Source: Isoetes taiwanensis (Eukaryota > Streptophyta > Lycopodiopsida > Isoetales > Isoetaceae). Taken from it: a DNA stretch of 64,000 nucleotides. How positions within the stretch are numbered: the stretch's first letter is position 1; each line of letters starts with the position of its first letter. Of the stretch, positions 30,231 to 52,683 are shown one piece after another. The notes under the pieces were generated by a model. That model saw nothing but the letters and a program-made list of their open reading frames with translations. It was not told the origin of the DNA and searched no databases. The stretch spans positions 4,251,225 through 4,315,224 of the forward strand of contig JAJEKV010000078.1 of assembly GCA_021234155.1 (NCBI GenBank), written 5' to 3'. Position numbers and translations under genes: made by a program.

Positions 30231-31885
30231 CTCCTAGTGCTTGAAGCACCCAAAAGAGAAACTCGAATGGGAAAGTTTTCCAACAACTATACTAAAGATA
30301 TTTGTATTATAAAATGTCACGCGTTACAAAGGTCACTTACCATAAAATACAAATTTTACAATTTATAGCACGGTCAAAATTGGTTTATCAACATTTTGGT
30401 GACGCATTACAAGTATTTAATGTTTGTCAATCATTATAACAAAGTTTGTATCACATGTGACAAATCTAAAATGACGTAGCAAATTAATTTGCCGCACAAA
30501 TCAATACATTACATCCACTTGACTCTAACTGTGGTCAGTGGCATAAGCTTGCAATATATATGGTCAAAATCTTTCTTCTCTTCCCCTTTTTCTTTTTTTG
30601 TGTGTGCTTCCAATACCTGTTTTGAACAATGTGTGATACCTGCAGTAGATTGAAATGTACCAACACCTACCAAAACAAACGAAATGGAAATGTAAACCAA
30701 CAAAAAGAGAATCTAAAGCTTACACAAATGCATATAGTAAATGCAATGAGAAATGCGATGAGCTAGAAAATACTATAAGTAATAGTTCAAATCCATCATT
30801 TTTCCTGGATAGAAAAGAATGCAATGCCAGAAAGCCAGAATACCTCTTTTGCTCTTACAATGCTATAAAGAATCTTTACTTTTCCCCACTGGAAGACTAA
30901 AGCAAGATGCATGGAGCATAATTCACAAAAATGAAATCACAACTTCAAAATGGGCAATGCTTAAAAAAGAAATGGCATCCTGCAACCACAACATGTTGTA
31001 TGAGAAACATTATCTTTACAAAAACAAAATCACAACTTGGAAGATGCAAAGGCATCCAAGGAAACAAAATGGCAGGAAGGGATTATCTTTCATGAAAATA
31101 GCAATGAAATATAAGGCAAGGATTTGAAAGTGGCCATCTTGAATGATCCACAATTTTATCTGACCAAATGATGATTAAAATGAGAACATACACTTCCCTG
31201 TTATGGTAGACAACATTCATGCAATTGAAGAGTTTTTGTGCTCAAGACATAAAAAGCATGAATAGAAAACATATACCTTAAGATATACACAGCTTCAGAC
31301 TCTTGAAACTAAATCAATATAAGGTACAAGAAAATCTTGATTTCCAGGCTGATCACCATTAACAACTCGATTTGATCTTTAATGCAATATTGCCTCTTGG
31401 GATTGGCATAGGAATACTAGTATGTTCTAGATAATTTTATCTTCCTGTCTGGAGCCCAAAGCACAAATCTTACCAGACATGCTTCAATTCAAAAGACCTT
31501 CAATAGAAATGATACCTTTGATTCATCTACATCTTTTATATAAAATAGATACAAAATAGTAATAATTGTGGCTCAACATACGCAACATCAAGAATGTCAA
31601 ACTAAATAAGCAAATTCTTTAAATTTCATGATCTGATCATATAGTTGTGCATTACAGTTACTGCATGAATTCATTAATTACAGAAAATATGTTTTCTCGT
31701 TCGAGCACGAAATAGGTCGCGGACAGTGCGTAGACAGGGATTTAAGGTCCTTGTGCACCTAAATGAACTACTACAGAACGCAATATCGGCCGGAACTTTA
31801 ATTTAGCGCGAGATCGAGCATTATTTCTATGATTAGCATGCTAAGTGCCAGCATTAGACCAGGCATGTCATTATCACTAGTTGTC
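30231..31885. other. Unassigned AT-rich stretch
   Basis: Lysine-rich short frames (30655-30900, 30819-31127 plus) are products of A-rich DNA. No conserved protein was recognised. Near 31800 a TTTAGCGCGAGATCGAGCAT segment may be a decayed copy of the palindromic element described below. Confidence 0.35.
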
Positions 31886-31889
31886 CGAA

Positions 31890-32014
31890 AGATCGCGGTG
31901 GCGATCTTTAAATGCTCGGGCATAGCCTAAAAATCTATGAACCTGCTCTGGGCAGCTGTAACATTTGACAAAAAACCTACCGCTAATAGCTCAAGGAAAT
32001 CGCTGCCGCGATTT
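31890..32014 (+). repeat. Palindromic GC elements, copies 1 and 2
   Basis: AGATCGCGGTGGCGATCT lies at 31890-31907 and AAATCGCTGCCGCGATTT at 31997-32014. They lie just beyond the 3' end of the ParB/methyltransferase-like gene. They belong to the family found at 34155, 35814, 35904, 35969, 36032, 37156, 37354 and 37452. Confidence 0.85.
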
Positions 32015-32819
32015 CTTTTATTGCGATTGCACTCGCAGATTCATAAATTAATATTCTCTCAAAAGGAAACCTGACATAAAATTACAAGAACTTGAACGAT
32101 TATATTTCATAAAAATGTCTTGAAACAAAGCTTCACATTTATGAACGAGAAAAAAAATTACATTTATCATTTGAAAACACAGGTGACGGTCTAAGTATTG
32201 TACTGAGTCTCTTGTACTGAGTCTGGGGCAATTCCCAATTCATTCTCCATTCTGGCCACATGTTCAGCGCCTCTTGCAATAGTCTGGGAGAGGTCCATTT
32301 CGGTATAGCCTGTTGTATCTGGTATATCAACGTTCATTGCAACAGCCAACTGTTGCACATGGCCTGCCTCATAAGATTCATCAAACTGGGGTGTTTCCTG
32401 CATGTCGTCCAATTTCATGGCATCTTCCTGTGAATCTGCTGTTTTAAATCTTTTGTGGAGCTGTCCCATTTCTAGCTCCACGTTTTCAGATTCATTGGGA
32501 CCCATATATTCAAACCGTTTGCCAGACAACAAGGGCATGACATTATCCAGACTCTGGTTTAGTGCCTCGAGCTTTTGGAATTGAGGATCCAGTGCATCAA
32601 GAGTTTTCGCGGTGCCCTCTATCAGATCTCTGGTCTTTTGAAGCCTCTGCTCAAAACCTTTCTCGTCTAACTTATCCAATATGTCATCCACTTTGCTAAT
32701 ATCCGTATGCTGAGTGATATTCAAATCCGGCTTCTCTGCGTCAGACAATACATCTGGTTTGTTTTCCTCAACTTTTTCTTCCACGCTAGGGGTAAGCATT
32801 TTCTCTAGGGTCTCAAAGA

Positions 32820-33791
32820 AAGCATTCAAAAACCGACGCACCTTGTCGTCGAATTCAAAGGCTACGCTGCGTTTGCCTTGCATCATTGCTACTCTTGAGG
32901 CTGTCCCCGCGGAAAAGAAATCAAGCACGCACCCGTCTACTGGCACTAGTTCTCTCACCATCTGGTAGACATAAGTGGTTTTTGCCTATGATTTAAGCAC
33001 AAAGTCTCCTTCAATACCTGCCCAAGTATACTTTGGTTTGCCAGTGAAGTATTGTAAATACTTCTGCTTGGTTTTGGCGTCCACTTCCTCATTGCCTGTT
33101 ATTTCATACTTGGGAAGCGGGGTGCTCTTGGGGCAGCTTGTGGCCTGTGTTAGTCGGAGTTCCAACTTTGGAACAATTGGTATTACCCGAGCCCCACTTC
33201 TGTTGACAAACATATGTGTGACATAATATTGAAACTCTTTCACATTTTTTTGTTGATCCATCCTTGCTCTTCATAAGCTCCAATTGACACATGAGACCCA
33301 CCTTGGATTTGTAGAGCCGGGGCTGCATGCAGCGATTCGGAAGTTCTTGCCGACCTCATAAAAATTACAAGATGATATACTTTGGCCGTTGTGATGCCTG
33401 CAATCCTGTTAAATAAATCCTGATATTTTTTAACTTCCCAAATCGTACTAAAGGCGCGCATGTCAATAAAGACCATCGTTGCATTTTCTTGCGCAGGTGC
33501 TGTGACGGGAATGCCTGCCGTGGTTACATGATGCACTGAGTTTCTTTTGGTCTTCAGTAGCAGCGCTTCCTCTGGCACGACTATAGATCTGATTGCCTCC
33601 AAAAAGGCACTAGGAAGATTACCCTGGACGTTTTCTTTATTGTAATTTGCCTTTATGTATTCAAAATCCGTATCTGAGATGCTCAAAAGCCTATCCTCGG
33701 TCAAATCTGGAAAATGAGACACCAACTCTTCGAAAGAGACATATTCTTTGTCCAGCACACTGCTTGCATAGGATAGCACTTCACGGCGCAT
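32820..33791 (-). pseudogene. Beta-type DNA methyltransferase-like domain
   Basis: This is the catalytic half of the gene above. The position of motif IV is occupied by I-D-M-R instead of D-P-P-Y, so even an intact version might lack base-amino methylation activity. The SAM-binding loop F-F-S-A-G-T-A and the following acidic F-E-F-D strand end are well formed. An in-frame TAG separates G-D-F-V-L-K-S from A-K-T-T-Y-V-Y-Q-M-V-R-E-L. The target-recognition part between them carries W-A-G-I-E-G. Alternatives are an RNA methylase or another Rossmann enzyme. Confidence 0.5.
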
Positions 33792-34154
33792 GAGAGACAG
33801 TGTCCTAATATCTAGGGCTCATTTGTCCGTCCGATGAATCTGCCAAGATAACCTTCTTTGAACCTTCAAGAAGGTTTTGCCTTCCAAAATTTCGTCCATC
33901 AATAAAGAAACTTCATCGTTATTCATACCACGGAGATACCTAAGAAAGGTCTTATTAAAGAATTCTTTGCTGGGCTTATCTGGTAATTCTCCATGGTCGT
34001 CCTTCAACTTACGTCCAGGCCCAATGAGCAACAACACGTTAACCCGACCAAGACGATTCCGCAAGATAAAATGAATTGCTTCTCATCTTTTAATTCTTTG
34101 ACCTTCAAAGTAGTGGTCGCAACATCAACAAAATCCTGAGGAAGCGGTGGTTAG

Positions 34155-34170
34155 GATCGCGGCCGCGATC
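34155..34170 (+). repeat. Palindromic GC element, copy 3 (perfect)
   Basis: The perfect 16-bp palindrome GATCGCGGCCGCGATC, followed by TTTTCAAGC, lies in the putative intron just after the ParB-like exon (donor AAG|GTATTTTC at about 34213). Confidence 0.9.
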
Positions 34171-35813
34171 TTTTCAAGCTGTAAGAGCGAAATAAAGCAA
34201 AGTGTAGCAAGAAAATACCTTCCACCGGGTTACATTTGTTTCGGTTGGGCCTTGTGGTGGGCAGCCAAAAGCTTTGTGTTGATTTCTCAGCTGTTGGAGT
34301 TTTTCGATAAGAGGCTCCCTGTAAACAGTATCAGCTATTATTTCGTTACACTGTATAGAGAGCTGGATATATTCTTTATCCGTGAGATTTCCATTCAGGA
34401 TCCTGGACCTCCTCCTCGCATAGGCTTTAGCAAACTCTAGACGTTGAGCGATCTCTCCTACCATTGAAAGGAGAACCTGAGCAGCAAAGATGCTGTGGTT
34501 TCCAGATATAATATAAAAAATTTTTCCAACCAGATCCTCTGGCTTTGACCAAGTTACTCGTTTCCTGCATGGAGCATTAAGTGTCACCTTCGAGCAAACT
34601 TAACAGAAAGCAAAGAATGAAGCTACTTACCATGTAATAGGATCGAAAGGCACCAAGTCTGCAGGTGTCAGAACTTCAGTTGGACATGTTTTGAAGCTCT
34701 TGACCAACGTGTGCACATGGTCATTGAGTGAGTCCGTAAGGCCATGTTAGCCGGGGCAGATTCACAATAAAAAATGCTGACCGTCATAAACCAGTTTACA
34801 CCCATAGGATAAAACTTTTTAAATTGCTCCAGTTTCAGTGCTGTCTGCTCAGCAAGTTTCTTTTCTTCTTCTGGATTAAATTTTAAAGCATAGGGAATCC
34901 TAGTGGCTATCGGCCACGTAAGAGCAGATGATGCTGCATCATGTCGGTCAGATGACGATGGAGTTGTGGATGTGGATGCGGTCTCTAAACTGCCCAATGG
35001 CAATTTTATTTTAAATGGTCTAATTTTCTGGGACGGAGGATCAACAGGTGCTGGCATAATCATCTTGGGCGCCATGGGATCGACAACGGCAGAAGCAGTG
35101 GGGTTAACAGGTGTAATGGGGTCTTCGAGCTCAACAGGGGACTTAGGGGCAGATGATTCACCTATTGCAGCTAATGGGATGACGCTCCTTTTCTTTGCTG
35201 TCGCTCGCAACCAGTTGGTATCCATCCTCTGTGGCATCTTGTTGTCTCTTGTGGCCTTGATAGCACAGGACGGAGGTTTTTTATCGGAGGCTAGCATTTA
35301 CTGAAGCCTACCAGTATATCCCTGTTTCCTTTAATACTTGACAACGCTAATGAATCGTAGGAAGGGAGGGTCCAGCCAAAGCCCTTTGCGCTAGTTGGTG
35401 CCCCTTTACCACTGGCAGGTTTGTTCGTCTTGCTTGCAAGCATCATATTCGGGTCATAGCTTTGCCAGCGTAAAATGTACTCAACAAATGCCAACTGTTG
35501 TGTGTCTTCCACGCTGCAGATAAGGGCGTCCTGGACGTTGTTCTTCGTCCCCTCCCACATGGCTATGACGATACCCATTTGTTCAGTCGATTCCATATCC
35601 TTGCCATTTCTTATAAATAGGCATAAATCCTTTCTTCGATCACCTTTTGTCTGCGGTATAGCCTGTGCAATTTCTATGCACCACCTACGGGTAGGGCCCG
35701 GAGTTACTATGCTTAATGGGCTCCATGTTGGGGCCACACGGTAACCCAGAGCTGCAGAGAAAAAACGTATCAACGAAAATATTCGGAGGCATAGACAACC
35801 TAAGAGATAAACA

Positions 35814-36047
35814 AAATCGCGACCGCGATTTCTCCAAGCACTTGGAGATAGGTAGTTGATACTATTGACAAAGAATTCAAATCAAGAACATTAGAACTAA
35901 ACAAAAGCGCGGCGGCGTTTTTGACGAGCACGCACAGTTCCTATCTACACAATGAAATTCCTAAAGGAGATCGCGGCCGCGATCCTTCGAACAAGGCCTT
36001 TGCTATATTTGTTGGAGGCCAAGCTCAGAAGGATCGCGGTCGCGATC
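35814..36047 (+). repeat. Palindromic GC elements, copies 4-7
   Basis: Copies are at 35814-35831 (AAATCGCGACCGCGATTT), 35904-35920 (AAAGCGCGGCGGCGTTT), 35969-35984 (GATCGCGGCCGCGATC) and 36032-36047 (GATCGCGGTCGCGATC). Each is followed by a related flank (CTCCAAGCA, TTGACGAGCA, CTTCGAACA, GTGTCGAGCG). They lie upstream of the first detected exon of the ParB/methyltransferase-like gene, spaced 60-90 bases apart. All read in the same direction, opposite to that gene. Confidence 0.88.
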
Positions 36048-36244
36048 GTGTCGAGCGTGGCCGACCCTTGAACTACGTAATGAAGTGCTCGACTCAAAGA
36101 TCGCTAAAAGAAAGCGCGGAAATTACCTTGTTGGAGGGCTTGCTGGCGAGCCATGAAGGCGCTGATTCTTGGACGCAGGCGCGGCTTCCGGTCGAGGCGC
36201 TGAAAATTTTCGCGAGAATTCTAGAAAGTGTTTATATATAGGGT

Positions 36245-36460
36245 ATGAATTTATGACGGGCGCCGGTATTAATGACGGGCGCATTAATGACTGCCGGGTA
36301 TTAAATACGGGCACATTAATGATCGACGCGGTGTTTATGACGACGGGCGATTAATGTGGCTTCGGTATTAATGACTGACGGGCGCATTAATGACTGACGG
36401 CCGTGAACATTGTGGGTAAATAGTGAATGGACTTGACAACGACGGGCGCATTAATGACTG
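36245..36460. repeat. Degenerate ATTAATGAC minisatellite
   Basis: ATTAATGAC or close variants recur about eight times between 36268 and 36460, alternating with GGGCGC and GACTGACGG words (ATTAATGACGGGCGC type). The spacing is irregular, 15-45 bases. It lies between the palindrome cluster and the next AT-rich spacer. Confidence 0.75.
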
Positions 36461-37061
36461 AGATCCGCATAACTGACGACGTACAGATGTCTGACGGACG
36501 GCAGGAGGGCGTAAGAATGGGATGATATTGACGTGTGACCAACAGTCAACGTCAAGATAATGCCATGTCGTAACCATAATTACTCATGTTCAAACATTTT
36601 CGAATTCAAATTCATACATTTTGAATTTGCATTCAGAACCCAATGAGAAACTTATTCATAGGCGCTTCATTCCAATTTTGTGGGCGCTCCGTTGCCGATT
36701 GTGGGCGCTGCTTGTTGTTTTGTGGGCGCTGTGCCTGGGGGAGCAGGCGACCTCAGATTTGCGAAGTTTTTGCTCGATTCGAAAGGTTCAATTCAATTTC
36801 CTATATCTGCGTATTTCCTGTTCGATCCAATTTTCAATTTGCCTGTTCAGATACATGTGTAGATGCATGTTCAGATGCATGTTAAGATGCCCCTTTGTTT
36901 GCATGTATTTGGTATGCATATCTGTGGAGTTCTCTATTGAATCTGTGGAGTTCTCGATTGAATCTGAAGCACACATTGAGTAGTTTGCCCACCTGATGCA
37001 AAAATTGGCTATACACCTCCAATTGCCACATCATTTGTTAAGGGCGCATTCACTTGATTTA
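36461..37061. other. Repeat-rich spacer
   Basis: It holds TGTGGGCGCT words three times (36679-36732), TTCAGATGCATGT-type repeats (36847-36890) and a 21-bp tandem pair starting ATCTGTGGAGTTCTC (about 36920-36962). No gene was recognised. Confidence 0.55.
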
Positions 37062-37380
37062 TTTACGAAGGAGGACATTGGCATGATTCATTGATGTTTT
37101 ATCCTGAAGCAGCATTTCAAAGGCTCACCATTGGTCACATAGTTTCATCTCTGTAAGATCGCGGTGGCAATCTTGTCAAGCCACTTCAGTTGTCCGATCA
37201 TAATCACTTCAGATGCATGTTTAGATCCCTGTTTCGGTGCATGTTTAGATGCCTGTTTCTTTACGAAGGGGAATATTATCATGATTCATTGATGTTTTAT
37301 CCTGAAACAGCAATTGAAAGGCTCACCATCGGTCAAAACGTTTCACCTAACCAAAATCGCCGCGGCGATCTTCTCGAGCA
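37062..37380 (+). repeat. ~120-bp direct duplication, each copy ending in a GC palindrome
   Basis: Copy 1 (37062-37181) and copy 2 (37260-37380) share TTTACGAAGG, CATGATTCATTGATGTTTTA and AAGGCTCACCAT. Both end with a palindromic element at the same internal position: 37156-37173 AGATCGCGGTGGCAATCT and 37354-37371 AAATCGCCGCGGCGATCT. The palindromes differ more than the rest of the unit. The spacer between copies has TTTAGATGCATGT repeats. Confidence 0.85.
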
Positions 37381-37451
37381 AATTTAAGGTAATATGTACT
37401 CTCATGTCAAATGCCCCTATTGTTGTTCCAGACTTAAGATTTGGTCCACTG

Positions 37452-37467
37452 GATCGTGGCCGCGATT
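37452..37467 (+). repeat. Palindromic GC element, copy 10
   Basis: GATCGTGGCCGCGATT, one change from the perfect palindrome, lies 34 bases upstream of the exon starting at 37501. Confidence 0.8.
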
Positions 37468-37500
37468 TATAACACTACTTTCTCATGTTATTGTTGCAGG

Positions 37501-37840
37501 ATGGAGCTAAAGTGCATGTCATACAATGGCAATAAAGTTGCCGAGGGCAAAGTCCACAGCTTTACTACTCATCATAATTTGCCCCTGCCTGAGGGATTCA
37601 AGGTCGTGTCGCTAGAAAGTATTTTCAATGGAGATCTGCCGTTGCCCTATCCTGAACCTGAGATTGATACACTTGAAGAGTCAAAGGGGTCATTTATTCT
37701 TTGGCTCAGCAATGACATCTCAGACCCAGAAACTGCAGTAGATAATGCCGTCACACCACCGGCACAGGTTAAATGCATAAATTGGTTGTGCATTGAAGAC
37801 AAAGATGCAGAGCCTGAGGCATGCCCTCGACATGAAGGTA
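37501..37840 (+). CDS. Exon resembling a plant transposon-associated domain
   Basis: The acceptor TTATTGTTGCAG precedes 37501 and a donor-like AAG|GTATTTC follows 37839. The frame reads M-E-L-K-C-M then V-A-E-G-K-V, L-P-L-P-E-G-F-K-V-V-S-L-E-S-I, L-P-Y-P and K-G-S-F-I-L-W-L-S-N-D-I. The pattern of V-A-x-G, a P-L-G-like turn, P at L-x-x-P, and S-x-I-x-W-P ending resembles the C-terminal domain of proteins in plant CACTA-like transposons. The match is by pattern only. Upstream and downstream exons were not found. It may belong to the same mobile unit as the ParB-like gene on the other strand. Confidence 0.4.
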
Positions 37841-37855
37841 TTTCAAGAGAGGAAC

Positions 37856-38775
37856 TCATGGAGAAGACTTGCTCGTTGTTGCACGAGTGTTGTGGTCAAC
37901 CATATGCATCGGGCGTGCAGTTGCCGACATGAAGTTGGGAGAAGAGTTCTTGGGTGTGACAATTATGAGGTTGTATCCAATGCCAGAAAGAACGTCTATG
38001 AGATGCCAGGCTTGTGCCGAGGCACCCCAACCTATCTCATCTTCATCTTCTGAAGTCTCTTCATCCTCCACAATGGTCTTTTTCCTTGGCCTCTTCTTCC
38101 TCCCATTCTGCATCTCTTTCCTCTTCTCCTCCCTCTCTAATCTGGCCTTCTCTTTTCTTGCCTTATCCTCCTCTTTCTTCTTAGCCCTCTCCTCTCTCAA
38201 CCTTGCTTTGTCTTCTACTAATTTCTTTCTTAACTCCTTGGCCTCCTCTAACTGTTTTAGATGCTCTATTTTTGCTGCCACAAACTCATCAGAAGTTACA
38301 TAAAGCTTTTTCTTTAGTGCAGGTGGAAGTCTGCATGATTTTCTTACAGCCTTAGACCCCTCGTTGCAATGCAAACTTGCAGCTCTGGCCAACGTTTGCA
38401 GGCCAGCAGAAGGTGCCTCAGAATGTGGCACAATTGGATTGCCATTTGCTAAATCATTTGCACCTGGATTGGCTGCTGCATTCTCACCTGGATTGGCTGC
38501 TGCATTCTCTCTTGCATCCTCACCTGCATTAGAATTAACATCATCACCCTCTTCTCCATCACCTTCTCCATCCTCACAAGATCCTTGCTTGGAAGATCAT
38601 CTGGTCTGGCTTGGATGTTAGCAGAAGTATTCTTCTTCTTCTTATGAGCAGCAGAGGCACTAGCAACATGCTCATTAGCAACTCCTATAGAATTAGGAGC
38701 AGGCTGTGGTGGTGCAGCAACAACCCTATTTCTTCTAAGTTGCATGGTAAGGAGTATCAAGCAAGAAGAATGCAA
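37856..38775 (-). CDS. Lysine/glutamate-rich coiled-coil protein, unknown, one frameshift
   Basis: The minus strand reads an Ala/Asn/Gly-rich N-terminal part starting M-Q-L-R-R-N-R near 38744, then after a frame change near 38570 an E-N-A-A-A-N-P-G repeat, then a long charged helix (K-A-R-L-R-E-E-R-A-K-K-K type, about residues 95-160) ending K-K-R-P-R-K-K and an acidic D-E-E-T-S-E-D-E-D-E patch. The basic cluster could be a nuclear localisation signal. No enzymatic motif is visible. It shares orientation with the ParB-like gene, but its relation to it is unknown. Confidence 0.4.
38460..38515. repeat. 26-bp tandem duplication in coding sequence
   Basis: CACCTGGATTGGCTGCTGCA recurs with a 27-base period, giving two E-N-A-A-A-N-P-G units in the minus-strand protein. 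Confidence 0.85.
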
Positions 38776-38829
38776 GATACCAGCAAGGAGGATTAAGCAC
38801 CTTGGACCTGCAAAACGAATAAGCAATCA

Positions 38830-40215
38830 GCAACATGCACAAAGTAGAGAATCAAATGGAGACATAATCTCAAATGCTTACCAAGCAAGCTTTGAAACAA
38901 AATGCTAACCATTTGTGAGCCAGTGTGCAGGTGGAAGTGTTCTTGGGCGCTCAACATTTTATACCTCTAAAACAAAGCATTCCATGTTCAAAGTTGCCAC
39001 AGTAGCAGCTTCAAGCCAAGCATTGAATGGAGTAGATTTTGCCATGCAAGTGATCCTTCTTCTCAACCGCAAGATCAAGCATTCTAATGTGCTGGATCAT
39101 GTCCTGAAAGGGCGCCCAAGAACACTTTGAAAATTTGAACTCACTACTAATGGAGGGAATGAAATCAAAATTCAAAATTATTGCATGATCCTAGCATTTC
39201 TATTGTCAAATGCATGAAGCAATACTACCTGGATCCCAAAGCAGCCGCCTAAGTTAAGATTCTTAGTCTTGGAGCTGCTGCAACAAGCATAGCAGGTGAG
39301 GGCAGAAGGTGCGCCAACAAGGGCTACGGTAGTAGCCATGCAGGGCCAGCTGAAATCCGGCCAGGGCTGAGCATAATCCATGGCGGCGCATTCAAGCGCC
39401 ATGAAGAACAGAGTCGCCGCCTAAACAGAGTTCGTCGGTGCGCCAAACCCTAATCTCAATCGTGCCAAACAGGTAAGAACCCTAAACCGGCTAGGGTCTC
39501 CACGTCGCCAAGTCACCGGCCAATATGTGCCCACGTGGATTCGCCATCGATGGGCCTATCGCCATTCATGGACCACTCCCCTTAAAAAAGCCAGAAACAA
39601 AGGGCAAACATACACTACAAAAACACGAATAACATATCTGGCCTTTCCTGTGATAACCCGCATGTCCAGTGCTCTAGCCGCTCTAGCCGCCTAGATTGTC
39701 CAGAGAACTTGGTTGAAATGAAAACGGCCAGCAGCAATTCAAGACATCGCCAAAAGCCAGAAAGCTAGAGTCAGACTGGAGAATCGCTTCCTCAATAAAT
39801 CAAAAGCAGAATCCCTTCCTCAACAAATCAAAAGCTGAAAAGCAAAAACCCAAATCGCCTGAAAGCAAAGGCTACGAAATCTAATAGATCAAAACAAGTA
39901 AAAACTCTGAATAGAGATGATTGAAACAAAAACCCGTTGGGCAGAAACAATGAATGAGGTTAAAAAATGTATTGGGTAAAGAGAGAAAAACTTGTGGAGC
40001 CAAAGATGAATGGAATGGAATGGAAAGGAGCTCAAGAGAACTCCGTACAACAACAAGATTCAGCTCAGAGGAAACGCCGATGAGGAATGCAGGAAGACAC
40101 AAGGCTTTTATGGGAGAAAAGGCCAAAGAAAGCCTGCGCTATAGCAGGCTTGTGCCAAAGAAAGCTTGGATCCAAAAGCAGAGCTGGCGCCAAAATTGGC
40201 GTCCCTTTCCCTAGA
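38830..40215. other. Unassigned stretch with a possible minus-strand exon
   Basis: A minus-strand frame at about 39226-39402 starts M-A-L-E-C-A-A-M-D-Y-A-Q-P-W-P-D-F and reaches a donor-like ATCCAG|GTAGTA. It could be a first exon of the gene downstream on that strand. It is cysteine-containing and unrecognised. The rest has no recognisable content. Confidence 0.35.
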
Positions 40216-40218
40216 CTG

Positions 40219-40250
40219 ATGGTTCTCTTCTATATAAGAAGAGAACCATT
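40219..40250. repeat. Perfect 13-bp-arm hairpin with TATATA loop
   Basis: ATGGTTCTCTTCT is followed by ATATA and the exact reverse complement AGAAGAGAACCAT. The loop overlaps a TATATAAG box, so it could also be a core promoter. A short frame downstream (to 40422) is unrecognised. Confidence 0.8.
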
Positions 40251-40429
40251 GCATTCTTGTCTGCCCATATCAGTGTTTCCTTTCATTTCACCTCGGTTTT
40301 CCAGATTAGCCTGTTCGGTAAAATCATTTGAGTTCGATCCAAATCATCCGATGCCCTCAAATTTCTGGCATAAGCCTCTGCCAGACCATGATCTAAATGA
40401 AGTTGAGGCATACAGGAAGTAGCTTGACA

Positions 40430-42235
40430 TTGGATCTATATTGCTTGCCAGTCTGCTATAGAAAAGAGAGAGTGAAGATCTGAATCCACCTCTTCCACCC
40501 TGATGTTTTATGGGTCTCGATCAACACTGTTTCATTTACCGCAGCTTCCGATCTAGTAATGGATGCTCTGACAAAGAAAGTTGTTGAATAAAGTATCTGA
40601 ATCACATTGTCTTCCACTCATCCTCCTCTTCTCTCTGCCTTATCCTTATCCTCCTCTACTTGGTCGCTATTTGGATGCTCCTTCCTTCCCTTGATCTGCT
40701 CTCCCCTTAATATCCTTGATGTCCTTTTTTTATTTATAAAAGGTAATTGTTCCCTATTTTAACCTAAAGGTTATACTTGAATAACCTTTGCCTTTTTTTT
40801 ATTATAAGATCACCGGGCATAAGGATGCTACAGGCGTCCACTTTTGGAACCAACTAAAGTACTTACACTAGGTACTTCAGGACTGGTACTATTTCCTTGT
40901 AAGATCAGAACTACTTCAAAAATTCAAAGCAAAGATCAAAGCATTTTATTGTAAGGTTAAATAAAGACAAGACTATCAGCAATAGTCAAAATGAATGCAT
41001 CCAATTTAACACTTATTAGTTATTGAGACAATAAACAAGTACCAAGTACCAAGTACGAAGTACCCATATTAGGTACTTTGCTAGGTAGTTTTATGGTCCC
41101 TAAATAATTTTTTTTTTGGTACATAGTAGCATATTTGTGCCCATCTTTAACCTTCTTTATTAAAAAAAGGATAATGTTGGTATTTGGGCTAGAAGACCGC
41201 ATGCATTGTTCCGTCTACCCTGTTGCACAATTTTTTGATATGTATTTTCCTTTATTGCGCCCTTTCTTTGCTCTGTCCATTTATGTTTGGAATCCATCCC
41301 TCTTCTAACTATGGATTCCTTAGCGATATTGTTGCATCTCTTTCTAATGGATTTTTTCTGAACCTAAGCTTTCCTTCAATAGATGAGTTTTTTCCAAGCT
41401 TCATCTGCTTTGGCAAATTCACAAAGTTGAAAGGTAATTTCTATTGGAGTTCTATGGGGAAGATTCATAATCTGGGCTCTATAGAAGGGAAAACCTTATC
41501 TAGAACATATTAATATTTTTATGCAGATTTCAAGAGGCAATGTGCAACAAAAATAAAATCTAATTGTTGTTGGGCGATCATGTCAAACATCAAGGCAAAT
41601 TGCCTGATGACATGAGAGTTAGAATATGTGAGGGAATATTTTAATTCATATATTAAATGGGTTATGACACCATAGTGCGACACCAAAGAAATGAAGTCAT
41701 GCCCATCCTGACTTGCAATCATGACTGGAAAATAAAGGAGCATTGCTGAGGTTTAACGCAACTTCCTAGCAGATAACAAGCCTTGATGGTAAGCACAATC
41801 ATTGTATGAATCAAGCAGGATATAGATCTCTTGGTCTCTATATCAATGGACTAAGGATTTCTCTTGGATTACGAAGAAGTGAAAGGATACTTTTAATGCC
41901 TTATATACAGAACATGAATATGGTAAAGCTTAAGACCATGATAGAGGTTTTTGAAAAGGTACTTTTGATGACTTAATGCAGAAATTAGTGCTATCTTATG
42001 ATGATTCAGTTTGACATGCCAAAACTACCTTCATTAACTACTATGCAGTTGAATTTCCTACTAAGCATGATTTCATTAATTGGAGAAAATAACGCAATTT
42101 TGAGAATTTTAAGCACACCTAATTTGCTCAAGCACAAATACTTTCACCTAGTTCTCGAGCCCAAGAAACATGAGGTAATTAACATACACATATACATACA
42201 AATTATGTGTTATACTTGTACGTGTACATGATACT
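40430..42235. other. AT-rich stretch without recognised gene
   Basis: Short frames only. AAGTACCAAGTACC-type short repeats occur at 41037-41060. Nothing was recognised. Confidence 0.4.
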
Positions 42236-42341
42236 TGTAGAAGCCCAATAATGGCCCTACATTCTACACCAATAATTCACATCAATAATTTTACTCCACT
42301 ATAAAAACAGTTCGACTCGGGGGGTAGAGGTCATTCATCTT

Positions 42342-42588
42342 CCATGGCTTCCTCGATGCCTCGTCCAGAGCACATCCGATCTTTCAAGTGCTACTTGAGC
42401 TACAACGATCTGAAGCTAATGCGCTTAGAAATGGTATTAATCTTGATCCATGGCTCCAATCTAAAGTCGATGGTCCCGCGCTAGTGCTTGCAAGTCACTT
42501 TCGTGTTGTGGTCCACATTTATCGGGCTTCCCCGATCGAGATCTATGAGTCGAATAGCATCACGAGCTTTGGTGTTGATGATGAGTGA
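42342..42588 (+). pseudogene. Small gene, first tandem copy (possibly OTU-like)
   Basis: The promoter has CACTATAAAA at 42298 and an ATG at 42342 (M-A-S-S-M-P-R). That frame soon stops; the longer conserved reading (L-D-P-W-L-Q, then F-R-V-V-V-H-I-Y, then G-V-D-D-E and stop at 42588) is in another frame. Aligned with the second copy (L-D-P-Y-L-R), the pattern of an L-D-x-x-L stretch followed by a hydrophobic strand vaguely recalls OTU-type peptidases, but no catalytic triad is visible. Confidence 0.3.
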
Positions 42589-42874
42589 ATCAGATCCGCC
42601 GGGATATAATAATGACATGAGTAGCTATGAACTATGTATTACACTCAATGTTATCAGTGATGACTACTGTATTTGTTTATGATATAATAATGGTATGAGC
42701 ACCTATGAACTATGTTTTAAAAGCATACATACGAAAGATGTATTATACTTGTATGTATACAACAATCTTATACACACGCAATAATGGCGGTAAGTCTACC
42801 CCAATAATTCACCTCAATAATTCTACCTCACTATAAAAGCTTCTCACTTCGGGGCTAAAGTTCACTCATCTCCC

Positions 42875-43069
42875 ATGGATTTCTCGCCTTCATCAGTTCA
42901 CCACATCGAGGCGATCAAGTGCTCAATGAGCCACTCTGATCTTGTTGGTTGCCTAGACAGGCATCTTCTTCTTGATCCCTACCTGCGAAGAAAAGCTTTG
43001 GGCGCTGAGATTCGTTGCCCTGCGTCAATTCATGTTATGATCCATCTAATTTGGCTTCCGAGCGCATGA
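42875..43069 (+). CDS. Small gene, second tandem copy (possibly OTU-like)
   Basis: The start ATG at 42875 follows the TATA box CACTATAAAA at 42829 at normal distance. The 64-residue product (M-D-F-S-P, then L-L-L-D-P-Y-L-R-R-K-A-L-G-A-E-I, then I-H-V-M-I-H-L-I-W-L) ends early. Beyond the stop another frame continues to resemble the first copy, so a frameshift near 43065 is likely. Function unknown. Confidence 0.3.
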   Translation: MDFSPSSVHHIEAIKCSMSHSDLVGCLDRHLLLDPYLRRKALGAEIRCPASIHVMIHLIWLPSA

Positions 43070-43291
43070 GCTATGAGATATCAGGGATCACTACTACAGA
43101 TCCTGAAGATGAATGAATCACTTGTTCAACATGTTATAGTGTAAGAGCTCTTGTGTTAAGATGAAAAATGCAAGACGCATCACCTATATAAGATGCAAGT
43201 TTGTTTAAGATATATTATGATATAATAGTTATGTAGAAGAAAAGTTGTGTTGCTGAGTGGATGAATAATGCATATCTTACCTTAAATAGCC

Positions 43292-45852
43292 TCAAGTGTC
43301 CGCTTCATCTTCAGCATCTTCTTTAGCTAATAGTTCTTGGAGCTGGAGTCCTACACTTGTAGGGATCATTACTTGTGATGGCTTGTTCTTGACCAACCAA
43401 CCATAGTCAACAGTTTTCAGATGTTGGTATCGCGGTGGGTCATTTGGATTTGGCCTCCACTTCTTCTCCCAGCAATCTTTGTACTGCTGGCTATAGGTGG
43501 TTCCTTTCCTCACCACTGGCTCCCACCAAGACACAAGCACTTCCTCGTAATGTGGAAGAGTGGGATCCTGTATGGGCTCCTCTTCTGCATAGCCTAGCCA
43601 TGTCGGACAAGCATCTCCAGGTCTAATAAGCAATAACATACCTTTCTTTACATCCTGGTATGGGTCAAAAACCTGTACCGGGTTTCTAGGCTTATCCTTT
43701 GTGTCCTACATAAGGCGGGGTGCATCGTACTCATCAACCAACATGCTTTCGGCTCAACCAAGCACATCTTGCCTTGTGATAGGACAGAAGTCCTTGATTT
43801 CTACAATGCTTGTGGAAACCGCACTTAGGACACGATTAGATCCGACCCCAAGAGTCAATAACATCACTCATGTAAGCATTAGACCACGAAGTTCTCACCT
43901 CCCCTAGAAATATGGGCCCAAAGGCATCATATATTTTGCAATAGATGATCTTAATGCTCCAATGTCTTTTAAGCTACCATACGGCATCACCGGTCTTTGG
44001 CGAAGCCCCGAGGCATCATGGGCAAATCATTCTCGCCCGCTTTCCACATTCTAATACCTTTGTGAGGCAACCATTCTCGATGACCTGGCCTCATCTTGTA
44101 ATACATTAAAGGCCATCCATCTCTCATACGTGTAACTTGAAAAGCAGGGGTCCCAAGTGACTAATCAATCGATCTTTTTTATCTGGGATGTACCCTTTCA
44201 CAAAAGACTTCCAATCCGGAACCCCGGTCACTAGGTATGGTTTGGGTGCTTTGGTCCGCATTCGAAAAAGTTGCATAAGCTCCGAATAGTCGAGCATCCG
44301 TCTGCGTGAAGCGTAGTCGAGTAGTTACCGAATAGAGCATCAATATCATCGCGTGTGTGTGACCCACCGGTCATGAACCCGAAGCTGTATTTGCTCAAAA
44401 CACCCAAATGAAACAAGATAGGAAAGGTAAGAGAAAAGATATCTATTTTATTCGCCAAAGACAATTGTCTAATTGCAAGTAGAGCCTCAGGGGAGCTTTT
44501 TTATGCTGAGGTGGTGGTGCTGGTGGGGCCACAAAAGCAATGCCTTTGTTGTTGACCTTTTGGTCTTCAAAGCAAGTAGTGTTTAATATTGTAGCACCCC
44601 ATACGCATTAGGAAGGGATGACTCCCTCAAATTTCCCCCAGCTTGTCCAAAGAGGCGCCCTCCATAGTTTTCAATGTATGGTTCAATGACCCAATATGAA
44701 AATTAGAGTCATCTTTCCAAAGGTCAAGTGAGAAATGCCCCAAGGCACCTATGCCATGGCCATGCATGAGTGCACCACCAAACTTACTTTCAAACGCTCT
44801 CCCCTCCACACCGACTTGACTAACTTCTCAAGTCTAGGCAACATTGTCTTATTCTCGTCCATTTTGTCGTGTATGATTGTGAGTGCATGCTCCTGGGAGA
44901 ACGGTGTGAAAGAGCTCTCCATGACCAATAAAGGCTTCTCGCAAGACATCCGGCGATCATGTGAGCCTTCTGTCCATCTGCAGCTCCCTTCTCTCTTTTG
45001 GATCTCTTGTCTTGGCTAATTTCTCTTTTATTACAATACAGCCTATTACATTTAGAGAAGGCAATCCTTTTGGCTATTCCAACCTCTTTGTGGTGCTCCT
45101 TCCATACATTCAAGAACTAATTTAAGGAGATATGTGCTTCCTACCATCTCCATTACGCCTTGGTCAACCTCATGAAGAATATCTTTTTTCGTCAAGACAG
45201 AGAGGGGTAGTCGCTTCACATTCTCCCTTGCACCTTGTGTGGTTACTTTGGATCTATAGGGCATGACCCTCGCATTCTCATCTATGTACATAGTTAATAT
45301 GGCATTCCGGCCGTGGTATGGGATCCGGTTTTCTTGAGTCCAAGTGTTACCATGTTCAGCTATTCTATGCCCCCATAAACAATTTCCGCCATTTATAGAA
45401 TGTAGACAAGTGGTATACCATAAGTCTGTATACCATGCTTTCAAGCATACTTGTTTGTTGTTTATCATCGGCCTTTTGACCGACCATTCTCTCGAGCAAA
45501 GGTATAGCATGTTATAAGTGAAGGTGGTTCTCGTCTCTGCGCTTTTCATATTCCAATAGAACGCCCTAATGCATGTGATCTCACACGTTGTAAAATTTGC
45601 ACAACATCTTCGAATGCAGCAAATTGACGACTTGAAATCCCGAATCGCTTGGGCAGTGATTTTCCTTGTTGCTTTGCTTGGCGGAGCAGGCTTTCGTGTT
45701 CGATTGATCATTCTATATGGTCTTCTTCTAACAGACTCCCCTTCGAATTTCAGGGCGTATGGCTCCACTTCCATGAAGTCCTCTCTCACAGCCTTAATGA
45801 GCTTGAAGACAGGAACATTATCCACTGTCACAAAGTCGTTGTGCCATCTCAC
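43292..45852 (-). pseudogene. Decayed DNA transposase (G-H-T-H-x-D-I-D family)
   Basis: On the minus strand the blocks follow one protein. The N-terminal zone (45852-45052) has C-C-I-R-R-C-C and I-R-A-F-Y-W, a cysteine-helix signature, then V-C-L-K-A-W. A catalytic-domain end (44464-44231) has G-G-S-H-T-R-D-D-I-D-A-L-F. V-P-D-W-K-S-F-V-K-G-Y-I-P lies near 44200 and D-G-W-P-L-M-Y-Y-K near 44110. The C-terminal module (43720-43292) has V-F-D-P-Y-Q, L-I-R-P-G-D, V-S-W-W-E-P-V and Y-K-D-C-W-E-K-K-W. I know this arrangement from repeated transposase-like proteins with a G-H-T-H-x-D-I-D motif in mosses, lycophytes, ferns and some animals (possibly the DUF7869 group). Many frame changes show it is dead. 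Terminal repeats were not identified. Confidence 0.6.
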
Positions 45853-46470
45853 TAAGTCAATGGAAGTGGTTTATAGGACCAGCAAAATATTTTAGTTTTT
45901 CAGGTCCAAATCAATGTATTAGGATCTGGAGCATAATTTCTGGTCATTACCAGGTTGTATGGGCACTTCCACATCAAGTTATATCGATTCTACCCTTAAG
46001 TTCACATTCATGGACCACTCCCCTTAGAATGTCTTTGTCGGTGGATGAATGGAGGAATAGCATGAGCTTCAGTTAAAAGCTTTCGATTTTTGTTCACCCC
46101 TTATAATTCTGTCTGGATCACAGCATTTTGATCGACTTTGAAATCTCATTTGGATCTGTAATCCATACCTACAAACTCCGTTCTGTTGTATATTGAATTG
46201 AACCAGGGTTCTGGACACTCTATGCTTGGTTAAGTTGCAGATTCATCCTTTAAATTATACCCATATCTGAGACGGTGCGCTGCTTGATTTCTGCGGTAAT
46301 GTCTGGTTTGAGTTTGAGTGGAGGTAAGCAGATCAACCCGCGGTATTTGTCTGCCCGATTCTGGCCCTGTCTTCCGTTGTGCCATCCTCTCGATTACGAC
46401 ATGCATCAGGACAGCTAGGTGGTTGCTAAAAAGTTGATTTAGTTAAGAAATCATAAAGCTTTTTCAATGT
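45853..46470. other. Unassigned spacer
   Basis: It contains, at 46005-46026, a 22-bp exact repeat of 39563-39584. No gene was recognised. Confidence 0.4.
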
Positions 46471-50375: not shown

Positions 50376-50826
50376 TTAGTGAAATTCCCCTCGGATTCTT
50401 CGCGCGAGCTGGATATCCTTGGGCATTATAGTAACCCGTTTAGCATGAATTGCACACAAGTTAGCATCGCTCAAAATTTCAACAAGGTACGCCTCCGCGG
50501 CTTCCTGAAGTGCAAGTATAGCGAATGCTTGGAACCTCAGGTCGGTCTTGAATTCCTGGGCAATTTCGCGGACCAGACGCTGGAAGGGTAGCCGGCGTAT
50601 CAAGGGCTCAGTAGTCTTCTGATACTTACATATCTCGCGTAGGGCTACTGTGCCCGGTCGGAACCTATGGGGCTTCCTTGGCTTGGCAGTTGCCTTAAGC
50701 AATGGCATGGACTTCCCGCAGGTCGAGGGACGTTTCGCCCTTTGCACAATCTGCTCCCGATGCTGTGCCGACGTTTTCTTGCCAATTGCATCATCCTTCT
50801 GCAGTCGGGTCTTGTATATATATACA
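50376..50826 (-). CDS. Histone H3-like protein with divergent N-terminal tail
   Basis: The minus strand encodes an H3 fold: [15 protein letters not shown], then [21 protein letters not shown], then [16 protein letters not shown] and [24 protein letters not shown]. Loop 1 has normal H3 length, so it is not a CENH3. Changes from canonical H3 include I-C-K for I-R-K, E-I-L-S-D for G-L-F-E-D and a Phe-His end. The N-terminal tail is poorly alignable and lacks the A-R-T-K start. The frame stays open into the target duplication of the adjacent MULE without an in-frame ATG, so the start is lost, frame-shifted (an ATG-ATG pair lies at 50793-50798 in another frame) or in a separate exon. It is probably a pseudogene or fast-evolving variant. 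Confidence 0.7.
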
Positions 50827-52683
50827 AGGGAAATTTACCAAAATAACCCTAATTTTTGCTGTATTTCCCAAATTGCCCTTTGTATTTTCGAAATTCCCAA
50901 ATTACCCAAAAATAAAATGGAAATTCCGAAAATGGACTTGCCGCTAAAAAAATCCTCCCGTTCTGATTTCTTCTCGGTTCTGCATGCTTCTCGGTTCTCG
51001 CTGATCTGTTGCCGAATGCTGGAAGCTTTTAATTTTTCTGTAAGCATATCTTGTGTTACATATTCTTACTGTTTAGAAAGGCTCTGAAAAGCAGCGACAA
51101 CCAAAATTGAGTGGCCTTTGTTTACACAGGTAATAAATTATGAATGGCCAATAAAGGATGCATATTTTTGTTTGTGGAGCGCCACAAGTTGAACTTTTAG
51201 AAGCACAGCCGATCACTAGGAAAATGCATCATCTTCACCCAACTGTTGTATTGTAAAACATTGGCCATTCCGCATCATTTTTTTTGGTTTATGGTAAACC
51301 TCATTCTGTAAGCATATTTACAATCTCGGCACAAAAAGATCTTAGCGTACTTAATAGCTTATGGCAGTCAGATTTCACTAGATTTGGGCAATAGATACTC
51401 TCCAGGTTCCAGACAATGTAACTTTTGTTTCTGATAGAATGAAAGGTTTATTGCCAGCTATGGATCTTGTGTTTCCAGGAGTTCATCATGCTTTTTGCAT
51501 GAGACATTTGGACGCTAATCTTAAAAAGAAGTGCAACAATGGTGAATTCATCAGGTTCTTTTGGCAAGCTGCATATGCTAAATCTGTGGAGGGCTTTAAT
51601 GAAGCTATCCAAAGCATGAGGGCAATCAATAACAGTGTTACAGATTGGATGCTTGCTTCAGCACCCGCACAACATTGGGCAACTGCACACTTTAAAGGAA
51701 CACGGTTTGGTCACTTGACTTCTAACATTGCAGAGGCTTTAAATTCTTGGCTTCTTGAAGCTAGAGATAAACCTATCATTCCAATGCTAGAAATTATTCG
51801 AAGACAACTAACTGAACGCTTTTACAAGAACCGTGTTGAAGGAGAGGCTTTGTGGGCGTCTTGTGGAGAAGCTGCTACATACACTCTAGTGAAAGATGCT
51901 CAACAACATATTACAAAGGTCACTGAACGAGCTAGAAGGTATATAGTATTTCCTTCTGATGCATTTGTGTTTGAAGTACAAAGTCCAGAGCGATCAGTTG
52001 TGGTTAACATTGAGTCTAAAACATGTTCGTGCTTGGAGTGGCAAATGTTAGGATTGCCTTGTGGTCATGCAGTTGCTGCTATTCTTTTTCGACGACAACG
52101 TCCAGAGCTTTATACACATCCAGGTTACTTGTTAAGTTCATTTTGCTATTCATATGCTGGAGCTATTTATCCACCAAATTTTGAACTTGTTGAAAGTAAT
52201 GAATTACTACCTCCTGCAACACGTCGTCCTCCTGGAAGGCCTAGAAGGAAACGGGATAGGATAGAAGACAGAGATAGAGAAAAGCGGGTGTACAAGTGCA
52301 CACGCCAGGCAGTATGGCGGCCATAATGAACGCATTTGCGTAAATCCTATTTGACATTGCATATTTCTGTCATAATTTCATGTTGTGAAAATTATTTTGG
52401 ATGTCACGAATATGTGGTATTAAGCACTTTCATTCCATCTGTAACTTTGTAACTTTCATTCCATCTGCTATTGTGAATTTGGAAAGTTGCATGCATTCCA
52501 TCTGTAAGAATAATATATGAATTTGGAACGTTCCACGGCTTTTTGATAATTTTTAGCATAGAAAGGGCTATTTGGGAAAATACCAAAGAATTAAGGGCAA
52601 TTTGGGAATTTTGAAGATACGAAGGGCTTTTTGGGAAATAAGTCAACAATTAAGGTTATTTTGGTAAATTTCCCTATATACAA
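50819..52683. mobile_element. MULE with transposase remnant, 9-bp TSD TATATACAA
   Basis: The element 50828-52674 (1847 bp) has long terminal inverted repeats starting GGGAAATTTACCAAAATAAC (about 80 bases with internal CCCAAATTGCCCTT) and perfect TATATACAA duplications at 50819-50827 and 52675-52683. It lies between the histone H3-like frame and its likely promoter. It carries the 3' half of a MULE transposase, so it is an internally deleted copy. Its ends resemble those of the element at 11422-13879. Confidence 0.92.
51403..52326 (+). pseudogene. MULE (MuDR-type) transposase, C-terminal part with SWIM zinc finger
   Basis: The frame enters at V-T-F-V-S-D-R-M-K-G-L (second catalytic Asp region) and continues with F-P-G-V-H-H-A-F-C-M-R-H-L, then A-H-F-K-G-T-R-F-G-H-L-T-S-N, and the SWIM finger C-S-C-L-E-W-Q-M-L-G-L-P-C-G-H-A (near residues 195-210 of the 51439 frame). 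An R-R-P-P-G-R-P-R-R-K-R AT-hook-like tail follows. The first half (DNA-binding domain and first catalytic Asp) is absent; a TAG lies at 51379. It cuts and joins element ends in intact relatives but cannot act here. The reading frame itself is uninterrupted for about 295 codons. Confidence 0.85.

Follow-up and report, generated by a model that had tools for sequence, protein, structure and literature searches.

A 64,000-nucleotide stretch of the genome of the lycophyte Isoetes taiwanensis (GenBank assembly GCA_021234155.1, contig JAJEKV010000078.1, positions 4,251,225 to 4,315,224 of the forward strand), here called the window, contains a copy of a DNA transposon with two genes, which belongs to a family abundant in this genome (family 1). 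A cluster of 16-bp palindromes lies in and around its gene 1. It is proposed, with moderate confidence, that the copy in the window is a decayed transposon whose gene 1 encodes a ParB-methylase-like protein, and that this protein would bind the palindromes of its own family and in this way recognise its own DNA.

Palindromes and structure of the element

The palindrome GATCGCGGCCGCGATC (16 bp) was found at nine sites in the window at up to three mismatches; dinucleotide shuffles averaged 0.05 sites and never had more than one. All nine are located within one 6.4-kb stretch, between 31891 and 37467, and none occurs elsewhere in the 64 kb at this threshold. The palindrome cluster around the gene, described in an initial annotation of the window, is thus real. 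Nine of the ten copies counted there were recovered; the tenth, near 35901 (repeat family D2), is more degenerate. On the gene model, every site is non-coding. Two sites lie in the 3' flank of gene 1 (31891-31906, two mismatches; 31998-32013, three), one in its third intron (34155-34170, perfect) and three in its first intron (35815-35830, three mismatches; 35969-35984, perfect; 36032-36047, one mismatch). The remaining three are intergenic in a model that leaves out a possible 5' exon of gene 2 at this place: two between gene 1 and gene 2 (37157-37172 and 37355-37370, three mismatches each) and one just upstream of gene 2 (37452-37467, two mismatches). The observed/expected ratio of CpG in the element (31663-38031) is 0.82, or 0.76 without the sites; two flanking stretches have ratios of 0.48 and 0.56.

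Searches of the genome (1,658,258,908 bases in 1,110 contigs) revealed 362 exact copies of GATCGCGGCCGCGATC versus none of the reversed word, which is also a palindrome and has the same composition. Coding sequence of gene 1 or gene 2 of family 1 was present in all 17 loci fetched for the exact palindrome, a non-random sample of the 362 comprising five picked loci (four clustered, one single) and 12 away from known matches. Palindromes equally common far from such genes were not seen, as all 17 loci contain the element. The earlier claim that the element carries its own binding sites holds for their location inside it; binding by the protein is predicted from sequence. Across 22 loci retrieved by way of the gene (157,671 bases), 112 occurrences of ATCGC-N4-GCGAT were counted, with 21 of the loci containing at least one; none of the 59 other arm arrangements exceeded two. 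In 39 family 1 loci (17 fetched for the palindrome, the other 22 for the gene; 204,488 bases) ATCGC-N4-GCGAT occurs 184 times, versus at most two. Its four-base centre is variable, with GGCC, GACC and CACC among the forms found; with flanking bases included, the palindrome reads approximately AARATCGCGRYCGCGATYTT.

The left and main part of the element (31663-38031) is collinear with other copies. The right part (42065-45859) is now inverted relative to other copies. The unit delimited initially, 31890-37470, is smaller than the element. Its left end was located at 31663-31667 in all eight close copies read there. In seven of these, position 38031 is joined directly to the sequence from 45859 downwards in reverse complement; the match of the eighth (L011) stops at 37418. 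Given this junction, an inversion of 38032-45859 is the best explanation for the arrangement seen in the window copy. The second end was found at 42059-42063 in the three copies followed further. Inverted repeats of about 28 bp at both ends were identified by comparison of copies in two other copies (A and B) and in the window, where they comprise GCATGAATTCATTAATTACAGAAAATATG on the left (31663-31691, plus strand) and GCATGATTTCATTAATTGGAGAAAATAA on the right (42065-42092, plus strand), the latter displaced by the inversion. Another copy (C) is without the first bases of the left repeat. The flanks differ among copies. Candidate target-site duplications of 4-5 bp were detected in two copies (TATGT, ACTA), and no clear one in the other two with both ends. 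The length of the family 1 element is about 9.7-10.3 kb.

A DNA search of the genome with part of gene 1 had 766 candidates, of which 40 were scored and gave 47 matches. A protein query from a different part of the gene yielded at least 150 matches (E ≤1.5e-61; best 150 of 2,480 candidates), many of those listed being located in open frames of 500-700 amino acids. The genome-wide protein and family searches, here and below, cover the best 150 of many first-look candidates, and their counts are rough. The initial view of a decayed mobile element was correct in its kind, a two-gene transposon of about 10 kb with many copies. The decay applies to the window copy, which is also internally rearranged; open copies of family 1 exist and look selected. 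A host gene with incidental palindromes was ruled out by the many copies and their shared ends.

Gene 1 is located on the minus strand, and the multi-block gene seen there initially was confirmed, with four exons and GT-AG introns. Exon 1 (36127-36154, 28 nt) encodes MARQQALQQ in the window type and was placed by comparison of copies; a candidate first exon of the same length was present in four of seven diverged copies examined. Exons 2, 3 and 4 comprise about 1.1, 0.35 and 2 kb, respectively. Exon 2 (34631-35751) is frameshifted in the window copy. Exon 3 (34219-34564), assigned from open reading frames, motif and profile comparison, carries the ParB-like motif SGNHSIFAAQ. Exon 4 (32191-34135), assigned from motifs and profile, encodes a putative degenerate beta-class methylase-like domain, here in four open pieces. 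In the window, the reading of gene 1 is broken into several frames. One family 1 copy has an open frame of 1,157 amino acids that covers exons 2 to 4 and begins with a few residues from an intron. The gene 1 product is best explained as a protein of about 1,150 amino acids in which a ParB-like segment precedes a beta-class methylase-like domain without the catalytic motif.

Between subfamilies (58-77% protein identity), silent sites are saturated, with proportions of synonymous differences (pS) of 0.79-0.92. The palindromes are kept in non-coding DNA across these subfamilies and have therefore persisted. Ratios of nonsynonymous to synonymous substitution (dN/dS) were 0.11-0.40 in 11 close pairs of gene 1, drawn from 12 copies picked for long open frames, which biases toward low values.

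Gene 2 is divergent from gene 1. Its 5' part (37501-38031, plus strand) was identified from open reading frames and Pfam. The remainder (43292-45859, minus strand) is displaced by the inversion and broken here. One copy of gene 2 is open for 849 amino acids and matches Pfam DUF7869 (E 2.3e-42), a domain of unknown function in Pfam; the literature search found no paper with DUF7869. A genome search for this domain yielded 9,908 first-look candidates, the best 150 of which are all above cut-off. Gene 2 probably encodes the transposase, as suggested by its place in the element and the number of first-look candidates. From the same number, DUF7869 seems to form a large part of the repeats of this genome.

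The gene 1 protein and its sister families

The ParB-like motif S-G-N-H-S-I-F/C-A-A-Q is kept in nine of nine aligned family 1 copies, the rows having been obtained with a pattern in which GNHSI is obligatory (matched by 19 of 27 copies, nine of them aligned). Its A-A-Q end differs in two of the 19 pattern-matching copies (L014, L031). The S-adenosylmethionine (SAM) motif D-F-F-S-A-G-T-A and a preceding I/V-D-x-R block are present in the gene 1 copies. The methylase-like alignment comprises 14 rows, with one copy (L008) left out. The position of the catalytic motif is occupied by I/V-D-M/I/F-R in all 14, and by IDMR in place of DPPY in the window copy. Due to this replacement of the D/S-P-P-Y-type motif, the gene 1 protein of family 1 is predicted to be catalytically dead. 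Of the two marks of a beta-class DNA methylase, homology in the region of the SAM motif was found and the catalytic D/S-P-P-Y motif was absent. The order of the motifs had been called permuted, which was mistaken, since the catalytic block precedes the SAM motif in the sister methylase described below and in CcrM, too.

A genome search with Pfam N6_N4_Mtase resulted in 1,444 candidates, the best 150 of which are all above cut-off (E ≤1.1e-12). A sister family (family 2) was read at three of the loci (L048-L050). Its exons encode a ParB-like segment (VLGGNHSFKA), then DLPYG, and then DAFSGSGTT. The ParB-like exon is whole in L048 and L050, and DLPY is present in all three copies. The methylase part matches Pfam N6_N4_Mtase (E 5.7e-19), CcrM in the PDB (1.8e-11) and phrog_67 (5.3e-26); identities to phage records were 24-29% among the 20 matches listed. 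Family 2 is a large transposon family that encodes a beta-class, CcrM-like DNA methylase, apparently intact.

The N-terminal part of the family 2 protein resembles phage DUF6551, which we take to be ParB-like, below cut-off (E 0.0023 and 0.01). Its tblastn matches in phages (E 5-7, four records) are not significant alone; the three records inspected encode DUF6551 proteins in which DGQHT occupies the corresponding position. The ParB-like part reached E 0.23 with a PHROG named ParB-like, and a PDB search with it found no match. Among the first 20 of the best 150 genome matches to this part, ten are followed at about 2 kb by a listed methylase match, and for six a DUF7869 match on the opposite strand is listed about 3-5 kb away. 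The family 2 elements carry a homologous DUF7869 partner. A third family adjoins a family 1 copy in L025 (L025:1-6000). Its protein shares 43-55% identity with that of family 2 over the ParB-like and DLPY-exon pieces. The last exon shows lower identity and is broken, and the L025 copy has HIPY instead of DLPY. A DUF7869 match is located about 0.3 kb beyond the start of the L025 locus.

The assignment of the family 1 protein to ParB and methylases is based on the clear methylase of family 2 and on a profile comparison with this family. The two profiles match at the SAM motif with E 0.0013 over 69 columns (hhalign probability near 20%) and at GNHS with E 0.0034 over 20 columns (near 10%). The scores were 34.2 and 24.6, versus maxima of 29.6 and 23.5 in column shuffles, respectively, and none of the 200 shuffles reached the real score in either case.

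Each family has a palindrome of its own. In the family 2 copy L048, TGTATTCCGGAATACA is located between the exons of the methylase gene, with distances of 42, 42 and 84 bp; 3,392 exact copies occur in the genome, versus none of the reversed control. The third family in L025 has 25 copies of the GGTATAAATTTATACC core in 6 kb, and 7,218 exact copies of GGTATAAATTTATACC were found genome-wide, again versus none of the reversed control. Counts of the three cores (in the order of the families) were 184/0/0 in family 1, 0/19/0 and 0/22/0 in family 2, and 0/0/25 in family 3, so that the palindromes did not cross-occur in the family loci read. Spacings between sites cluster at 34, 63 and 107 bp in family 1, at 42 and 84 bp in family 2, and at about 31 and 63 bp in family 3. 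Helical phasing was considered as well. Families 2 and 3 are near whole turns and family 1 is not; shared descent is uncorrected in this comparison, and it was not used as evidence.

Proposed binding and alternative explanations

In the favoured mechanism, the gene 1 protein would bind, in dimeric or oligomeric form, the palindrome arrays in the non-coding DNA of introns, divergent promoter and 3' flank. The bound protein would recognise the DNA of its own family and alter chromatin or expression, as VANC does for VANDAL transposons. Proteins of the sister families may also methylate their own DNA, while the family 1 protein, without catalytic residues, would act by binding alone. Anti-silencing, autoregulation, an aid to transposition or, in the sister families, methylation have been considered as outcomes. 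A wider reading that joins the three families is advanced only tentatively. Each family of a land-plant transposon clade would have a self-recognition system of prokaryotic type that pairs a ParB-methylase-like protein with a private 16-bp palindrome array, the two changing together when families diverge. The protein of two families would be an active methylase now or recently, and that of family 1 a dead reader that loads on, and perhaps spreads from, its arrays, countering silencing or controlling transposition.

Several results weigh against the favoured reading. Pfam ParB_N (PF02195) gave no match in gene 1 and none above cut-off genome-wide. The ParB and methylase identity claimed initially was therefore not recovered by Pfam, N6_N4_Mtase remaining below threshold in five of 14 family 1 members (best E 0.032); the assignment depends on the sister family and the profile comparison. 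Cas9_PI outscores N6_N4_Mtase with E 0.0022 in two of the 14, and the best Pfam models of the ParB-like part are NTS (0.0066) and SieB (0.027), all presumably by chance. A PHROGs search with the family 1 protein yielded neither ParB nor methylase. The profile matches to family 2 are short and have low hhalign probabilities despite their E values, and the ParB-like part exceeds its best shuffle by a slim margin. In 1.4-kb windows around listed family 2 palindromes, at least two copies of a looser core were present in five of five, and ParB-methylase coding sequence in only one of five. Finally, the DUF7869 proteins are family-specific as well, so the co-variation of palindrome and family cannot tell which of the two proteins binds.

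The DUF7869 protein, too, differs between families, which makes it the main rival candidate for binding of the palindromes. The transposase would use them as synapsis-aiding repeats, like the TnpA sites of En/Spm, and gene 1 would have a different role. This is considered unlikely, although the occurrence of each DUF7869 protein beside its own palindrome and the two sites between gene 1 and the left end agree with it. The sites are clustered in gene 1 introns and in the intergenic stretch and are not symmetric at both ends, the right part (42065-45859) is free of sites at up to three mismatches, and the array in the family 2 copy L048 sits between exons of the methylase gene.

A further rival is that the likeness of gene 1 to ParB and methylases is due to chance. 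A plant-transposon protein of unknown fold would be consistent with the absence of Pfam matches above cut-off, including any to a helix-turn-helix, and with the negative result in PHROGs. Solved structures gave no informative match to the family 1 protein either. A first PDB sequence search yielded one match with E 1. The second had its best E, 0.00089, with a cytochrome trimer (sub-threshold pieces), and the best 60 of its 61 matches comprise cytochromes and others but no methylase. A search of viral contigs with the ParB-like alignment of family 1 gave 203 pattern matches, none of which was confirmed. However, both motifs align to family 2 in the right order, each beating 200 of 200 shuffles, and the family 2 elements share the homologous DUF7869 partner. 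Chance likeness is judged even less probable than binding by DUF7869.

It is improbable that the palindromes are host transcription-factor sites that the element acquired to serve as promoter or enhancer. The several sites in the first intron and between the divergent genes would suit such a role, but the three families have three unrelated palindromes that do not cross-occur in the loci read, and the element was present in 17 of 17 site loci examined, so that no use by a host gene was seen. Least probable are passive, hairpin-forming repeats spread by tandem duplication without a binding protein. Spacings that recur, of 34 bp in family 1 and 42 bp in family 2, point to arrays that grew by duplication, but the arms are kept while the central four bases vary across copies saturated at silent sites, and the 59 other arm arrangements fail to accumulate.

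Relation to known systems and neighbouring features

Transposon proteins of the ParB-methylase kind are already known from algae. Sola1-1 of Ectocarpus carries, opposite to the transposase strand, a gene for a protein of 1,104 amino acids with ParB-like and N4C/N6A methylase domains, and similar proteins occur in green and red algae (PMC12477816, citing Iyer 2011 and Petroll 2025). The authors suggest that these proteins may bind and modify their own transposon; the part of the paper available names no binding site (PMC12477816). Compared by the published description, the likeness would consist of both domains in one transposon gene on the opposite strand. In the Isoetes elements, this architecture is seen in family 2; family 1 contributes short profile matches only, and its genes 1 and 2 lie on opposite strands. 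The Isoetes elements differ from the algal elements, as far as described there, in the lycophyte host, the DUF7869 partner, the lack of the catalytic motif in family 1 and the dense, family-specific palindrome arrays. These four features, with the predicted dead variant among them, were not found in the literature searches. The available part of a further paper contains no mention of ParB, Isoetes or lycophytes (PMC12695648).

The closest worked-out analogue of the self-recognition model would be VANC, the anti-silencing protein of VANDAL transposons in Arabidopsis. VANC motifs are located in non-coding DNA including introns, are family-specific and change between related VANDAL families (PMC5735166). 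The likeness to family 1 is one of features: a protein encoded by the element, arrays of a short motif that extend into introns of its own gene, and family specificity. Such family-specific arrays in the non-coding DNA of the element are present in family 1. According to the parts of the paper available, VANC motifs are 8-9 bp long and have one orientation (PMC5735166), in contrast to the 16-bp palindromes of family 1, and gene 1 is without a Pfam match above cut-off.

The family 2 domain matches the beta-class methylases CcrM and phrog_67 over most of its length and has the motifs DLPY and FSGSGT. The family 1 protein resembles them only around the SAM motif, by way of family 2, and has no DPPY-like motif. 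In ParB-parS systems, parS is a palindrome of about 16 bp beside the gene for the ParB protein, and the canonical ParB motif is GxxR. Likewise, a palindrome of this length adjoins the gene for a ParB-like protein in family 1. In contrast to ParB-parS, GNHS is without the arginine of GxxR, Pfam ParB_N is missing, and the sites are located in introns and intergenic DNA of a transposon. CACTA (En/Spm) is a two-gene element with repeated TnpA sites, and family 1 is likewise a two-gene element with repeated candidate protein-binding sites. However, a CACTA element was ruled out: the ends of family 1 are not CACTA/G, and the Pfam match of its partner is DUF7869 and not Transposase_21. Its sites, moreover, are not subterminal at both ends.

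In this single plant genome, three families with different 16-bp palindromes, each present in hundreds to thousands of copies, provide ready candidate sites. Three natural specificities could be swapped, and a version predicted to be catalytically dead could separate binding from methylation. If the favoured reading is true, self-targeting of the VANC type would have evolved independently from bacterial-type parts, and the system would be a possible source of DNA methylation other than 5-methylcytosine in a vascular plant.

Three other features were observed beside the elements. A Mutator-type transposase fragment with a SWIM zinc finger is located at 51382-52326 of the window, plus strand (Pfam SWIM E 3.8e-9; MULE E 6.4e-5, below cut-off). 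In the flank of copy A (L018), an open frame has the look of a PIF1-type helicase (GGTGKTFLFNS) and is Helitron-like by eye. A histone H3-like open frame, diverged by eye, is present at 50376-50834 of the window, minus strand (Pfam Histone E 6.4e-44).

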